From assembly GCA_034521575.1 (NCBI GenBank), contig JAXHMJ010000002.1, positions 156,706-220,705 of the forward strand: DNA of 64,000 nt, written 5' to 3'. The notes below the pieces were generated by a model. The model searched no databases and was not told where the DNA came from. It saw only the letters and a program-made list of their open reading frames with translations. The position numbers were made by a program, and so were the translations under genes. This document shows positions 12,240-30,534 of this stretch, one piece after another; positions within the stretch are counted from its first letter, which is position 1; each line of letters begins with the position of its first letter. The stretch is from a candidate division KSB1 bacterium (GTDB lineage Bacteria; Zhuqueibacterota; Zhuqueibacteria; Residuimicrobiales; Krinioviventaceae).

Positions 12240-15072
12240 ATGGACTTTTTGAATAGAGCAATGTATACATCCATTTGCTGGATTTCGATTACTTCGTCTT
12301 CTCCACACGACAACAGCAACACTCTCTGCCCAAACCGATCCGGTGATCAATGTTGTTGATGTAAATTCAACCGTGGTGGGCAAGTATGAAAAAATCGAAA
12401 TTCGCTTTCATATTGAAAAAGCCGACTATGACAACCCCTATAATCCTGAAGAGATTGATGTGAGAGGGGTTTTTGTCGCGCCCTCCGGCAAGGAATGGAA
12501 TCAATATGGATTTTATGATGATTATCAAAACCAAAATATCTGGAAAGTCCGGTTTGCCGCCAACGAAACCGGCGCCTGGAGCTATCGGTTACTCGCTCAG
12601 GCCTCCTCGGGGAATACCTCTACAGAGCTGTTTCATTTTCAGGTGTCTGAATCCGATTATCACGGCTGGATCAAAGTTTCTCCGGATCATCCGCACTACT
12701 TTATGCATGATGACGGAACGTCGTTCTATGGGGTCGGACCCTATTACCCCTGGGGTGTCAGTAACGGGTCTTCCGGACTCGGACAATTGGAGGAATACGG
12801 CGCCAATTTCTGGGGATACTGGAATATCCCGTACGGCGGAGAGATTCGTATCATCGAATCCATGCAATCCGGTCTCGGACGCTATGATCAGGAAAAATGC
12901 GGACGTATTGATCAGCTCATCGAATGGTCTGAAGAGCGGAATCTGAAAATGATGTTTGCGATTTGGCCGCATATTTGCTGTCCAATACGGTCTGGGCGCA
13001 TCAATGGCATAACAATCCTTATAATAGCATTACATCTGTGAATGATTTCTGGAGCAGTGAGGAGGCATGGACGTATCAGGAACGGCAGTACCGCTATCTG
13101 ATAGCACGCTGGGGATACAGTCGTGCTCTGGGGATTTGGGAAATTGTCAATGAAATCAACGGCACCGACGGCTGGCAAAACGGACGCCGGGATGACGCCC
13201 GGCGCTGGGTCGGCCGGGTACATGATTTTTTCAAAGCCCATGATCCAACGGGGCGGCCCACCACCGCTTCTATGAGCGGCGGACAATACTGGCCCGAGGG
13301 CTATGCCGAGGTGGATATATCGAATGTACACATGTATGAAACCGGCTGGCTGGCGCCCTATGGCGGTAATCCGTTGCGCAGCAGCGTATATACTTATTCC
13401 AATGTCACCCGTCAAATGTGGAATGATTTTGAACAGCCGGCTATTCTGGGCGAAGCCGGTTATACGGATAATTACGGCGACTTTGGCGGAGGCACGCCCG
13501 AATATACGCAAATGTTTCATAATGCACTCTGGGCAAGCTGGGCGAACGGACTGGCTGCTACTCCCGTGTGGTGGCCGGCGATTTCGGCTCCAAACAACTG
13601 ATGACCCGTGATGTTATGGAGCAAATGAATGCTTTTGCTGAAATTGTCAAACACATTGATTACGCGCATATTCCGTTCCAGCCTGCGGATATCAGCGCGG
13701 CGGATTGCGATGCCGCGGCTATGCACGCGGACGGAACAGCGTTTGGCTGGCTGCGTCAGCAATATGGTCTTGATGTGTCCCGAACGTTGGTCAAACTAAA
13801 GAATGTGCCGGATACGTCCTATTCTGTCCAATGGTATGACCCTGGTCCGGTAAACTGATTTCGACCCAAATTGGCGCGGGTTCCGATGGGGTATTGACAC
13901 TGCGTGTGCCCGAGCTCGCTCAAAACCGATACCGGATATCGCTTTTTCTCCTCTCCGATCCAGGACGGCACTGAGCCCTATCAATTGAGCCTGACGGCGG
14001 AACCGCCGCGAATTTTAAATCAAGAGTCTTTTGCGTCCCGGCTTTGCTGTTATCTTCTTGATCGGGAGGGTCGATTGTGTCGTGAGGCTGCTCCCGGCGT
14101 GGAATTCCAAAAAACCGGTCCCGGCGAATTTTCCGGAGAAACAACACAGGTGGTGAAAAATGGTGTGGCATGTATTGATCTCCACGCCACCCCGGAGACC
14201 GGCGCTGCAACAATAATTGCTGCATCCGATGGTTTGGTGAACGATACGGTCGAGGTCCTGATCACAGACCGTATGACTGTGGATTCATTTGATGCTTATC
14301 AAAATCAGGCCACAGTCGAATCGGCCTGGAGTATACGCTCCGGTACACAACTGCAGTTCAGGTTGGAATCGGAACACGTGGATACCGATCCGTATGCTCT
14401 GAGGGTGAGCTATGGCGTCGGAAGCGGTTATGCGCCGTATGCTGCCTTGGTAAAAAAGTTGCATGACCGTGATTTTTCTGCAGCAAAATCCATCCGATTC
14501 TGGCTGAAACCGGACGAGCTTCAAACCGGGATTTTGTGGTAATGCTGAAAGAAAAAAACGGCCGCTATTGGACGTATCAGCCGCAGGCTGTTCTCTCAAA
14601 CCGGGAGCCTGTGTATATCTCTATTCCATTGGATCAATTCACAGCTTCTGACACGGCGACGCAAATCGATCTTGAGAATTTAAACGAACTGGCCTTTAAC
14701 GTGCTGCCCGGCATCGGGGGGAGCGGATTGGGTGTGATTGTTCTGGATAGTATTCTGTTTTCGACCGGATTGAGTACAGGCGTAAAAGAAAAACCGGCTA
14801 TCGTTCCGGATGATTTTTATTTATCTCCGGTTTATCCGAATCCATTTAACGCCTCAACCCGGATGACCTACCGGTTGCCAAAATCCGGACTTTTAAAAAT
14901 ATCTGTGATGAATGTACGCGGACAAACTGTAAAATTGTTAGTCAAGGAGTATCAGAACGCCGGTGTACATAATCTGGTTTGGAATGCTGAAAATGCAGAA
15001 ACCGGAGTTTATTTTATCAGGCTGCAAACCAAAGACAAAACGCTCAGTAAAAAATGTTTACTCTTAAAATGA
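12240..15072 (+). CDS. Secreted DUF5060/TIM-barrel glycoside hydrolase with T9SS tail (frameshifted)
   Basis: AAAAGGAG at 12227-12234 precedes ATG 12240; a signal peptide becomes readable after a frame change near 12275. The DUF5060-like beta-sandwich follows (EKIEIRFHIEKADYDNPYNP, VFVAPSGKEW, ANETGAWSYRL). Next is a GH5/GH42-like TIM barrel: SFYGVGPYYPWG, LGIWEIVNEINGTDGW (probable acid/base Glu), ISNVHMYE and FEQPAILGEAGYTDNYG (probable nucleophile Glu). After it come an Ig-like segment (13980-14270) and a jelly-roll carbohydrate-binding-like domain (14280-14780). The T9SS sorting domain has VYPNPFNAST near 14835 and ends in CLLLK. At least five frame changes are needed. The substrate is unknown; neighbours point to mannan or associated hemicellulose. 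About 940 residues in total. Confidence 0.72.
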
Positions 15073-25817: not shown

Positions 25818-28779
25818 ATGTCCCGGAATTTGTGTTTCTTTTCTGCAGTTTTGATGTGTCTGGGATGGACAATTTTCTTGTATCCACAGGAAAACACGGT
25901 CGGATTAGTAACGAAAGAATCCGGCTCCTGTCCCGGATATACACTCTTTGCGCCTCTGAGCGCCACTGACACCTATCTGATTGATCATGATGGAAACCTG
26001 GTGCATTCCTGGACGGGCGATTATTCGCCCGGTAACTCGGTGTACCTGCTCAAAGACGGCAGTCTGCTGCGCACCTGCGATCTGCAAAATTCGCTGTTTG
26101 CAGCCGGAGGACGCGGTGGAGCGATCCGAAACTTGGATTGGCAGAGTCAAGTGATCTGGGAATACATTTGCTCCAATGATACAATCTGTCAGCATCACGA
26201 TGTTGAACAGCTGCCGAATGGAAATATACTAGTGATCGCGTGGGAAATGAAATCCCGGCAGGACGCTATTCAGGCCGGCTGCGATTCGGCGCTGGTCAAT
26301 CACAAGGGACTCTGGCCGGATTGCATACTGGAAATTGAACCGCAGGGCAATAACGGCGGCAATATTGTCTGGAAGTGGCATGTTTGGGATCATTTGATCC
26401 AGGATTTTGATCCGTCAAAAGATAATTACGGGCATATTTCGGAAAATCCGCAATTGATTAATATCAATTATCGATCATCCACCGGTATCGGTGCGGACTG
26501 GAATCACACCAATTCTGTTGATTATAATGCGGATTTGGATCAGATTTTGCTCAGTGTCAGAGCTTTTAGCGAGATCTGGGTTATTGACCACAGTACAACA
26601 AGCGAACAAGCGGCAGGACATACCGGCGGGCGCTGTGGTAGGGGAGGAGATCTTTTGTACCGATGGGGCAATGATGCAACATGGGACAGTCATTCAGCCT
26701 CAGGCCAACAATTATTTTATCAACATGATGCGCAATGGATAGATGCAAATCTCCCCGGCGGCGGGAATATTTTATTGTTCAATAACGGCAAAGGCAGACA
26801 ACCGTTTGCGTACAGCAGTATAGACGAATTGACTCCGCTTTTAGATACGGATGATACCTATGTTAAAAATACAGACTCTACGTTTGCACCTGAGGATTTT
26901 ACCTGGACGTTTACAGCTGATCCCCGCAAAACCTTTTACGCTGATCATATCTCCGGGACACAGCGGCTGACGAACGGGAATACACTGATCTGTGACGGCA
27001 CGCATGGAACATTTTTCGAAGTAACAGAAAACGGACAAACCGTATGGAAATACATCAATCCGGTTACCAATCAGGGTATTCTGTCTCAGGGTGACAGCGT
27101 ATTCGAGTCTGGAAAGGACCGGGTCAATAATGTTTTCAGGGCTTGGCGTTATCCGGTGGACTATCCGGGATTACTCGGTCAGGATTTGATCCCGACCGGA
27201 CCTCTCGAACATGCCCGCGAATCGCAACGTGATCTTTATACACGTATACCCTGTAATGCTGCTTCTTCCGACGGTCTGCAGGTGCGTGTCACTGCACCTG
27301 AAACTCCGAGGTATCAAAACGGCGCCCCGATTGCCATCTATGTGGCCGGAGGATTTGACAGCGAAGGACTGGATGAAAGACAAACCGGATTGGCCGATGA
27401 AGGTTTTGTTGAAATTCGCTTCAATTTTCCCGGCGGAGGTAAAGGTGGAGCAAAAAGCGGAGGAGAGTATGATTATCGCGGACCGGGCAGTCTTCTCGCC
27501 CTGCGGGATATCATTCAATTTGCCGCTCAAACCCGACCGGATTCGTCCGGTCTAATGTTGGATGACCTATTACCCTGATATGCCTGTATCTTCTGATAAT
27601 ATCGGATTGGTTGGGTGGTCAAATGCAGGCAATACAAGTCTCCGCACAGCCGGGTTTCATGCTGATGGATGCCCCGGATTATCCTGGATATTGAATTGGG
27701 AATCACCAGTCGGAGATGGGTTGCCGCAGGCGGAAGCCGGAGCAAAGTCCGAAAATACGCTGCGGCCGTTTAATAGCGGTGTCAATCCTGCCTATGATCC
27801 GCAAACCGGGGACTGGGATTTTAGCAATCTGAAATGGGATCCTTCCATACAGGTTCCCTTGTTGGGAGGCGGCGGAAACGTGTCGGGCAGTCTTTATATC
27901 GATGAGGATCAGGATGAGCAGGTGGACCGCGGTACTGATTTTATATTCTATCCGCTTGTTTTTAAACTGAATGACACCTTGAAAGCTTTCTATTCCGAGC
28001 GCCTGCACACTGAGGCGTTGAACCGTAATCTGTTCCCGGCCGCCCCACCTGATCATATACCGGATTTGCAGGAAAATAAAAGATTCTGGCGTCTGCGCAA
28101 TGGAGAATACTGGATCGAAACGGTTGTGGAAAATGTTCCCGATTTGTTTTTCATGGTCGTGGCCAGTGATACAGATCATGTGCAGGTGGCCCCGGATCAT
28201 CCGCATATTCTGAATCAATATAACGCTTTTTTGAATACAGCCTGCCGATTTGTGAGATTAAATCCGGACCGGTCTTATGTCGAGTCGCTTCTCGGCTATC
28301 CGCTTGAATCAGCAAGCGATAATGACGCGGGGATGCATCTGGATCGCAGTACCCTATCCAATTCTCTGGAGCCCGGGAATTCTATCACTGATCGATTCAA
28401 CAAAGTAACCGTGGCGGCTGCGGGCGCCTGTGAGCTTGCGGATCGGGTACACTGGAATAACTCTGATGCGCAAATTGACCCATTGACCGGGGTGAAAGAA
28501 TCGGCTCCGGCAATACCGGATGCTATGCAGCTGACCTCCTGTCCCAACCCGTTTAATTCAACGACCCGCATCAGCTATACCCTGAACCATTCGGAGCATG
28601 TCCAATTAGATGTTTACAATATACGGGGTCAGCATGTCCAGCAAATTTTCAACGGATATCAGCACGCCGGCAGTTATAGCAGACAATGGAGCGCCGAACA
28701 GCTGCCCAGCGGCATTTATTTGATCAAACTGAAAACTGATCACTCGGTGCTCTGGAAACCATGTACACTGGTGCGTTGA
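25818..28779 (+). CDS. Arylsulfotransferase-like / alpha-beta hydrolase fusion with T9SS tail (one frameshift)
   Basis: The ATG at 25818 follows a GGAGG at 25809-25813; a signal peptide ends near TIFLYPQE. Residues about 30-450 resemble the arylsulfotransferase (ASST) beta-propeller family: TYLIDHDGNLVHSWTGDY, SVYLLKDGSLLRTCD, HHDVEQLPNGNILVIAWE, DWNHTNSVDYNADLDQILLSVR, HDAQWIDANLPGGGNILLFNNG. Residues about 490-700 look like an alpha/beta hydrolase: IAIYVAGGFDSEG, EIRFNFPGGGKGG and the nucleophile elbow GLVGWSNAGNTS. The tail is a T9SS domain (SCPNPFNSTTRISYTL near 28540, ending CTLVR). A single frame change near 27560-27575 splits the gene inside the hydrolase domain. Total about 980 residues. 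Whether the propeller transfers sulfate or only binds substrate is unknown. Confidence 0.68.
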
Positions 28780-28859: not shown

Positions 28860-29158
28860 CTAAAAGGGGATATCTACAATGAAATGCAGCTTTTCAAGAT
28901 AAGCATGGTTGCTGGCATTCGCCGAATGCGGAACGTCTACATCGCGGCCGGGTCTGGGCCATTCATTTTTGCCGAAACGATACCAGCGTCTGATCTCGGT
29001 TTTTGTTTGCTTGTAAACGTATTCTGCTTCAACCGCAAGCATGCTGTTCTGTTCTTCAAACACCATGTCTCTATCGACGATGGGTGAACATTCTGCTGAA
29101 AAAAGCGGTGTAAAGGACACAATCAAAAAAACAACAGCAGAGTTTTGGTACTCATCAT
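28860..29158 (-). pseudogene. Truncated secreted protein, N-terminal remnant of a glycan-active family
   Basis: Reading leftward from ATG 29158 (or 29155), a signal peptide (MMSTKTLLLFF, then IVSFTPLFSAECS) is joined by correcting one base in a T7 run (29125-29131 on the + strand). The mature part reads MVFEEQNSMLAVEAEYVYKQ, then IRRWYRFG and ASNHAYLE. This resembles the start of a beta-sandwich module found at the head of large secreted proteins of carbohydrate-degrading bacteria (GH115 C-terminal-like or DUF5060-associated). The frame then ends at 28860, only about 98 residues in, where relatives run for hundreds. It lies 46 bases downstream of the DsrE-like gene on the same strand and probably shares its transcript. 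A decayed remnant is most likely; a functional short protein cannot be excluded. Confidence 0.45.
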
Positions 29159-29204
29159 GTACTTTTTGGCAGATTGATAACCGGGTATAATTTTTTCATT
29201 TCGA

Positions 29205-29882
29205 TCAAAAAACAAGCACTTTATGCCCGGATTTCAGATACCGAGTGAGCGGTTTTCCCATATACTTGACATCAACTCCCAGGTTCTCCAGAACATCTAC
29301 AGCTTTATATTGTTCTGCACACCATTGACAAGCCGTAAGCGTGACACCGGATGTTTTTGCCTGTTTGAGCTTTTCGTGCAGGTCTTTGTCTTCCTTGACC
29401 CGGTTGGCCGAAGGGCCCCATATCAACACTTCCACACTCTGCCACCATCCCTGTTTTGCGGCATTAATACTGTATGGAAAAATGACCTTGCTGAACACAT
29501 CCGCATCACCGGTGGACCAGAGAATAACAAGACTGTCCGTTTGACATTGACAGGTTTTACAGCCCGAATGCGAATCATGTGCACAGTTGCTTTTGCAATT
29601 TTGTTGACACTCGTGTGTTCCTTTATCATGCCCGCAGCCTTTTAAAGCGGTGTTACCCTTGCAGCCGGTGTTTTTTGTGTTTTTATGGCAGGGATGCTGT
29701 TTGCTGCAGTGTGCAGAATCAGCCGCTTTCTCACAGCAGGGCGCTTGTTCATGATCTGAGAGCGGTTCCCATTGATGCGTTTCAGTGCAGGTCGTTTTTT
29801 CCGCGCTTGAGGTGTCCGGTTTTTGAGCAAACGCCGATACTGCCACTGCCAGTAGAATCAGTCCATAAAAGAATTGTTTCAT
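29205..29882 (-). CDS. Exported DsrE-like protein with Cys/His-rich N-terminal region
   Basis: The ATG at 29882 follows GGAGAA with 5-base spacing. A signal peptide (MKQFFYGLILLAVAVSAFAQ) is followed by about 90 residues with 13 cysteines and many histidines (for example HPCHKNTKNTGC, HECQQNCKSNCAHDSH, GCKTCQC). A DsrE/DsrF-like domain makes up the C-terminal half: DSLVILWSTGDADVFSKVIFPY, VEVLIWGPSANRVKED, then GVTLTACQWCAEQY and LGVDVKYMGKPLTRYL. DsrE-like proteins usually take part in sulfur relay, normally in the cytoplasm; here the signal peptide implies the periplasm. The Cys/His segment may bind metal ions, by resemblance to metallothionein-like stretches, which is inference. A 16-codon ORF and a terminator-like hairpin precede the gene on the same strand. 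Confidence 0.75.
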   Translation of the reverse strand: MKQFFYGLILLAVAVSAFAQKPDTSSAEKTTCTETHQWEPLSDHEQAPCCEKAADSAHCSKQHPCHKNTKNTGCKGNTALKGCGHDKGTHECQQNCKSNCAHDSHSGCKTCQCQTDSLVILWSTGDADVFSKVIFPYSINAAKQGWWQSVEVLIWGPSANRVKEDKDLHEKLKQAKTSGVTLTACQWCAEQYKAVDVLENLGVDVKYMGKPLTRYLKSGHKVLVF

Positions 29883-29943
29883 GATTGTTCTCCGTTTTCA
29901 GAATCAGCAAGATATAAAAAAACTTTCGGGTTGGAACTCGGTT

Positions 29944-30022
29944 AAAAAAAAGACTGTCTAAAAAGTACACCTTTTATGAAAAGGCGCTGCCCGAAAAAAT
30001 CGGTCAGTCTTTTTAGACAGTC
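29944..30022 (-). terminator. Intrinsic terminator or attenuator between small ORF and DsrE-like gene
   Basis: Perfect 14-bp arms at 29952-29965 and 30009-30022 (GACTGTCTAAAAAG and complement) enclose 43 bases with smaller hairpins. In the - strand direction the structure is followed by eight T residues (complement of 29944-29951). This is the layout of a rho-independent terminator placed between the 16-codon ORF and the DsrE-like gene, so it may end the short transcript or attenuate the gene behind it. Confidence 0.6.
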
Positions 30023-30066
30023 CATCTGTTTAAACGAAAAGTTTAACGTCGTATTCAGGACCAGAG

Positions 30067-30117
30067 TCAACAGCCCTCACTGCAATGCGCAACACGGGGA
30101 ATTGCAAATCGTTTCAT
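30067..30117 (-). CDS. 16-codon small ORF with strong ribosome binding site
   Basis: The peptide MKRFAIPRVAHCSEGC is encoded leftward from ATG 30117 to TGA 30067-30069. AAAGGAG lies six bases before the ATG, a better Shine-Dalgarno than most genes in this window have. A sigma-70-like promoter lies about 60 bases upstream and a terminator-like hairpin follows 44 bases after the stop. These three signals together argue that the peptide is translated, as a leader peptide or as a product. Two of its last five residues are cysteines. I do not recognise the sequence. Confidence 0.5.
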   Translation of the reverse strand: MKRFAIPRVAHCSEGC

Positions 30118-30175
30118 AAGATACTCCTTTGATGTAATGAATAAAATCAAACGTGGATGATTAAAAGTTATACTA

Positions 30176-30203
30176 AATATAAAATATTTTAACTGACAGT
30201 CAA
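30176..30203 (-). promoter_or_regulatory. Sigma-70-like promoter for small ORF/DsrE-like unit
   Basis: On the - strand TTGACT (30198-30203) and TATATT (30176-30181) are separated by 16 bases. Transcription would start near 30168, about 50 bases before the small ORF. The rest of the stretch to 30534 is AT-rich and shows no further gene; it presumably also carries the promoter for the + strand gene at 30535. Confidence 0.5.
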
Positions 30204-30534
30204 GGAAAAAGTCGAATTGGACTGTTCTTTAATACTAAACCGTAATTTTAGCAACCAATCCATGAATTTATCTGTTATGAAACACTAACTGATAAAGATA
30301 TAGCATATGACAAAAACCGGAGAAAACTATTGTAACGCGGGTTATCGTATTTCCCGTCGGAATAATAATTAAAAAAATACTGGACTTTATCTCTCAAATG
30401 TTTAAATTAGCACTGCTCACCGATACCGATCACACAATATTTTAACAGGTCCTTCCCGATTTTGAGCAAAAGTAGTAACGTAAAATAATAAAATTCTTAA
30501 ACGGCTTGAAAACACAACACGAGAGGAGAGAGGC

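Follow-up and report, generated by a model that had tools for sequence, protein, structure and literature searches.

The locus analysed here raises the question of whether a 16-codon open reading frame (ORF) and a terminator-like hairpin upstream of a DsrE-family gene form an attenuation unit for that gene, or whether the ORF is a gene in its own right. The window, a stretch of 64,000 nucleotides, carries on its minus strand a promoter, the small ORF with an AAAGGAG ribosome-binding site, the hairpin with its T-tract and the DsrE-like gene. An earlier note had described these four elements in this order on one strand, and both order and positions were confirmed. The features of the locus are as follows.

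30176–30203, minus strand: promoter TTGACT-16-TATATT of the peptide gene, from a sequence scan, with a predicted start site.
30124–30130, minus strand: Shine-Dalgarno (SD) sequence AAAGGAG, with the ATG 6 nt further on, from sequence.
30067–30117, minus strand: micropeptide gene encoding MKRFAIPRVAHCSEGC followed by TGA, 16 codons from the ATG; conserved in KSB1-phylum genomes and IMG/VR phages.
30036–30056, minus strand: remnant of a KSB1-specific 3′ hairpin with 4 of 5 pairs retained, from an alignment of 8 genomes.
29952–30022, minus strand: terminator stem with two inner stem-loops, from folding.
30022–30009 and 29965–29952, minus strand: terminator arms GACTGTCTAAAAAG and CTTTTTAGACAGTC, 14 nt each, from complementarity.
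29944–29951, minus strand: U8 tract (T8) of the terminator, from sequence.
29205–29882, minus strand: exported DsrE-family gene of 225 codons with a Cys/His-rich segment, a neighbour outside the unit; Pfam DsrE, 6.9e-05.

From the positions of the promoter and U-tract, a short transcript of about 225 nt (∼30168–29944) is predicted; dsrE starts 62 nt past the U-tract. A scan with a generic promoter model gave 5 sites against 4.4 expected, and by this model the window promoter is ordinary. The motif TTGA-N17–20-TAnnnT is, however, enriched 5′ of genes in the source genome (44 occurrences versus 9 in reversed sequence), and TTGACT-16-TATATT conforms to it. No promoter of this type lies in the gap before dsrE, which is weak evidence given that most genes here lack one. 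In shuffled regions, an SD sequence with an ORF arose in 0.13% of cases for the AAAGGAG version and in 1.7% for the AGGAG version. Among 14 intergenic SD-led small ORFs found in 464 kb of the source genome, that of the window is the strongest having a terminator and a gene start both within 300 nt; one other (L145) has a weaker terminator.

Codon usage alone gave no decision on whether the ORF is coding. An alternative, frame B (27 codons, with a TAA ahead of the stem), was considered because of indels elsewhere in the window; its coding scores were equal and it had no homologue, and it was abandoned because relatives of the peptide fixed the reading frame. The window assembly contains several probable indels. 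An arylsulfotransferase-like gene at 27540–27600 is apparently split by a one-base indel and runs into a T9SS-tailed ORF at 27.56 kb; a DUF5060 gene seems to be split in the same way at its start, at 12.3 kb (12240–12400), and so does a small secreted ORF at 29100–29165, where a T7 run lies near 29.13 kb. These three apparent one-base splits are assembly errors or pseudogenes.

The earlier description of the hairpin as a perfect 14-bp stem followed by eight T holds for the arms and the T-tract but not for a simple hairpin: the arms enclose 43 nt that hold two further stem-loops, giving a branched structure. With its flanks, this element folds with a minimum free energy of −36.3 kcal/mol (z −6.9) and ranks third in stability among hairpins beside a run of at least six T in 464 kb of the source genome. 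Its pairing probability within the full leader fold is 0.999. Thus, an intrinsic terminator does stand ahead of dsrE. The hairpin is single-copy and therefore not a dispersed repeat or mobile element, an origin that the earlier note had raised. A known RNA family was likewise ruled out, as no Rfam cis-regulatory RNA was matched at gathering score in the window, with weak sub-gathering matches at 29800–30300. One terminator arm has a 21-nt match in genome G079, where the partner arm is absent.

The succession of promoter, small ORF, intrinsic terminator and gene is that of classical attenuators such as the trp and ilvB leaders (PMC1262725). By this reading, the position of the ribosome on the ORF, for example at its Cys codons, would decide whether the terminator forms and hence whether dsrE is transcribed. 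The order of elements on one strand, the gap between terminator and dsrE devoid of a motif-type promoter and the rarity of the layout in the source genome are consistent with such control. Folding of the leader is not. At its best, the leader pairs with the terminator's 5′ arm at −10.6 kcal/mol, a value equalled by 29.5% of shuffles, and the terminator stem, at −21.2 kcal/mol, is about twice as stable as this duplex. A leader fold deprived of the 3′ arm was no better than shuffles (z +0.56), and the terminator persisted when the ribosome was masked at the start codon, Cys12 or Cys16. Moreover, the 5′ arm lies about 45 nt past the stop codon of the ORF. There is thus no alternative fold above chance, and none dependent on ribosome position as in trp-type attenuation. 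Nor does MKRFAIPRVAHCSEGC contain a regulatory codon run; it has two separated Cys codons, and its conserved residues do not form codon runs.

The comparative evidence is similar. Upstream regions were compared for 85 DsrE-domain homologues of 33–51% identity, drawn from the same class and from GTDB genomes. An SD-led small ORF was present in 6 and a terminator-like site in 18, and none of the 85 had the two in order, contrary to the conservation that the earlier note proposed to look for in related genomes. Given that these homologues are distant and all lack the Cys/His-rich segment, the comparison is fair but not close-range. Relatives of the peptide, for their part, have neighbours other than DsrE. 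Attenuation of dsrE by read-through control, one of the two readings offered by the earlier note, is accordingly quite improbable.

The gene itself is as first described, exported and rich in Cys and His. The C-terminal part of its product (gene 29882–29205) matches Pfam DsrE (6.9e-05), the protein matches PDB entry 2fb6 (4.6e-27), and residues 31–115, between the signal peptide and the DsrE domain, form an 85-residue segment with 13 Cys and 9 His that is absent from all DsrE homologues compared. By inspection, a heavy-metal P-type ATPase gene precedes one KSB1 DsrE homologue (L097), and arsR/arsC-like genes are close to a broken homologue (L010). No relation between DsrE and the peptide was seen, and the best reading is that the proximity of the two genes is incidental.

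The second of the earlier readings, a stand-alone peptide product, is borne out by the distribution of the peptide. When the phylum was searched at the DNA level with positions 29941–30134, short matches appeared in three other families, beginning at or just before the ATG. The three genomes concerned (G079, G037 and G080) encode the peptides MKRFTIPRTAHCSDGCLCQSRA, MKRFTVPRIAHCDEGCCILS and MKRFIVPRIAHCSDGCMRQSRT, which together with MKRFAIPRVAHCSEGC belong to a family with the motif MKR[F/Y]x[I/V/L]PRxAHCxxGC. Its core, [R/K][F/Y]x[I/L/V]PRxAHCxxGC, ends at the C-terminus or a few residues before it; in the window peptide (…AHCSEGC), the CxxxC pair is the extreme C-terminus. A degenerate pattern of the common residues was found in 7 of 82 phylum genomes, six of them at zero mismatches, and the reversed control found none; a more diverged member in G046 raised the number to 8 of 82. 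Pairwise comparison of seven members gave 140 synonymous versus 71 nonsynonymous codon differences. The peptide was absent from all nine other genomes of the same family, and none of the other genomes compared is from the same genus.

A GGAG or GGAGG Shine-Dalgarno site precedes all eight KSB1 copies, and clear or strong terminators follow those in G078, G079 and G080. The flanking genes mostly differ; by inspection they include methylenetetrahydrofolate-type, flagellar-type and MarR-type regulator genes and an acetyltransferase. The only conserved synteny among bacterial copies is seen in two genomes of one family (L156 and L167), where the peptide gene comes after a gene identified by inspection as nuoN (NADH dehydrogenase subunit N). 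Given that the ribosome site and 3′ end are kept while the neighbours differ, the peptide gene travels as a ribosome site, a peptide and a 3′ end, without DsrE. The other KSB1 copies have 20–22 residues, in most cases with 4–6 beyond the GC, as compared with 16 in the window, so constraint at the C-terminus is not uniform.

A stem-loop common to the KSB1 copies (L163–L169 and L128) lies just 3′ of the ORF; its stem has 5 bp, its 11-nt loop reads nGACGYUAAAC, and an invariant GTCC precedes it. Over the eight genomes, 95% of cells in this stem were paired versus 33–50% in slid controls, and compensatory changes were observed at two of the five pairs. The hairpin is absent from the phage members. 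To judge from these eight sequences, it may set the stability of the mRNA 3′ end or termination.

The family also occurs in phages. The first occurrence in IMG/VR was MKRFIIPRVAHCNDGC-TAA on a contig judged by eye, from its proteins, to be Mu-like. A looser pattern was then present on 56 IMG/VR contigs, compared with 0 for the same pattern reversed. The phage set comprises 57 loci, equivalent to 41 distinct 48-mers and 38 peptides of 16–23 residues. Since the pattern itself fixes the positions that it names, their conservation is built in, and the evidence comes from the comparison of counts with the control and from the positions that the pattern left free: position 3, which was unconstrained, is K or R in 41/41 distinct sequences, and position 5 is M in 30/41. 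An ATG with an SD sequence is present in 32/41. The stop falls right after GC in 40/41, codon 17 being TGA in 33, TAA in 5, TAG in 2 and a sense codon in 1; the window ORF, with GC-TGA, has the phage form of ending. A scan for continuing forms added three genuine members, which end in GCTN, GCRR and GCR and so are longer by one or two residues; four copies of one further sequence were set aside as a chance match. No tblastn match was obtained in INPHARED phages and plasmids with 20–22-letter queries, which are near the detection limit of such a search, and in four named or uncultured phages with related terminases, the regions flanking these terminases lack the peptide.

The settings of the phage genes vary. 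In one group, which has a T4-like terminase with best matches of 31–33% to cultured phages, the peptide gene ends a row of genes and is convergent with a gene for a membrane protein of ∼95–115 residues. Elsewhere it lies directly upstream of or overlaps a different terminase gene, or is found in two further settings. In a second phage group (L185, L188, L191, L202, L214, L217, L219, L221, L226 and L228), it abuts or overlaps the gene for an 85–95-residue protein that has no Pfam or PHROGs match.

The small membrane protein beside the phage peptide belongs to DUF1360 (PF07098; Pfam E-values of 2.4e-4 and, weaker, 0.0073; phrog_781, 4.5e-8). It is the commonest neighbour of the phage members and belongs to phage packaging modules. 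Among 60 phage contigs, 36 have it adjoining the peptide; these were counted as a blast cluster plus clear carriers of the CPxCxGFW motif, are not independent samples, and show convergent, upstream co-directional and downstream co-directional arrangements. Like the peptide it carries a Cys motif (CxxC), but it is a different protein of about 90–115 residues. A DUF1360 membrane protein with a CPxCxGFW-type motif is likely to be the partner or functional neighbour of the peptide in phages, and the Cys/His peptide would work with it. An alternative is that the two simply share a common place in the packaging module. Cultured Microbacterium and Gordonia phages that lack the peptide carry, between their terminase and portal genes, DUF1360-like genes for CPWCxxFW membrane proteins, annotated only as membrane or hypothetical proteins (L230, L231, L233 and L234), so the link may be positional. 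No DUF1360 protein was found by motif in the window, in 400 kb sampled or in the ∼1.5-kb flanks of the KSB1 copies.

These distributions bear on the remaining explanations. That a chance ORF lies beside a real terminator would be compatible with the indecisive codon usage, but the scans refute it: counts of 56 versus 0 in IMG/VR and 7/82 versus 0 in the phylum, together with the synonymous excess, leave it a negligible probability. The conserved end directly before the stop, with TGA in 33/41 distinct phage copies, could instead mean that the peptide stalls termination and acts in cis, as an arrest or leader peptide, on whatever RNA follows, and some phage copies do overlap or abut the next co-directional gene. 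However, at least 29 of 57 phage contigs have a convergent gene as the next one, so that no gene downstream of the peptide is available there for regulation in cis; the genes that do follow are unrelated, and most KSB1 forms continue for 4–6 residues past the GC. Action in cis of this kind is therefore unlikely, if less so than attenuation of dsrE.

The stop codon itself admits a further reading, in which the window copy is a 20-residue selenopeptide, MKRFAIPRVAHCSEGC-U-LWS, with the TGA at codon 17 read as Sec and the TGA at codon 21 as the stop. Position 17 is Cys in 5 of 8 KSB1 copies and TGA in the window, and the next in-frame stop of the window, at codon 21, coincides exactly with that of the 20-residue relatives. 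On the other hand, two KSB1 relatives have Leu or Met at this place, and 7 of the 41 distinct phage sequences have TAA or TAG. Given that phage members end at codon 17 with these codons, ending there is normal, and a selenopeptide is possible but very unlikely.

Cys-motif ORFs upstream of metal genes are known from CruR (DUF2946, PMC9426467) and CutF (PMC9973294), and the Actinobacterial Cys-run leaders of cys operons place Cys codons near the stop (PMC1262725). With these and the classical attenuator order on record, the earlier assertion that no described system has this layout was too strong. The window resembles the classical attenuators (trp, ilvB, leuS and cys) in its promoter and short ORF and, for most of them, in the intrinsic terminator before the gene, but it differs in having no codon run, antiterminator or conserved target gene, and in that the amino-acid sequence itself is conserved in phages. 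As with CruR and CutF, a Cys pair (CXXC or CxxxC) is encoded by an ORF upstream of a gene whose product probably handles metal or thiols. Both CruR and CutF, however, have C-terminal Pro-containing stalling motifs, in CruR a RAPP motif at residues 139–142 with the CXXC 45 residues ahead of it (PMC9426467), and CutF needs a Sec signal (PMC9973294). The window peptide is 16 residues in all, has its Cys pair at the C-terminus and has no stalling motif. A CxxxC metal-sensing ORF of the CruR/CutF type was thus rejected, since length and motif do not fit.

The peptide had no Pfam or PDB match, and its motif was not found in a full-text literature search; the family is apparently undescribed and new. 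It was overlooked because ORFs of this size are beyond the reach of gene callers and family libraries, the peptide being below the length cut-offs of the libraries used. The GMSC small-ORF catalogue predicts ORFs from 30 nt, and recovery by homology search falls drastically for sequences of ∼20 residues (PMC11364881). Members may be listed, unannotated, in such catalogues.

Taken together, the data indicate that positions 30203–29944 (minus strand) are probably a self-contained gene for a conserved, trans-acting micropeptide, with dsrE a mere neighbour. The promoter, strong ribosome site, 16-codon ORF and intrinsic terminator would give an mRNA of about 225 nt, translation of which would yield a member of the micropeptide family. 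Expression of dsrE would depend on read-through or on an unrecognised promoter of its own. Given that the peptide is short, conserved and lacks a constant downstream gene, action in trans on a fixed target is most likely, and this target must be a precise one, since the 16-residue sequence is near-constant in unrelated phages and in several families of bacteria. Its near-invariant residues (P, R, A, H, C, G and C) follow a basic-aromatic pair, and the C-terminal H-C-x3-C appears suited to metal binding or thiol chemistry, the conserved His and two Cys perhaps binding metal or forming a thiol site. More tentatively, the peptides of 16–23 residues that end in PRxAHCxxGC could be a phage trans-acting factor that works with DUF1360, for example in a membrane function that is Cys/His metal- or thiol-linked and serves packaging, lysis or exclusion, the KSB1 copies being independent small genes with a conserved 3′ RNA hairpin.

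If confirmed, the family would provide a minimal, easily synthesised peptide as a probe for its target and a first functional handle on DUF1360. It would also serve as a warning that “leader peptides” before genes can be independent micropeptide genes.
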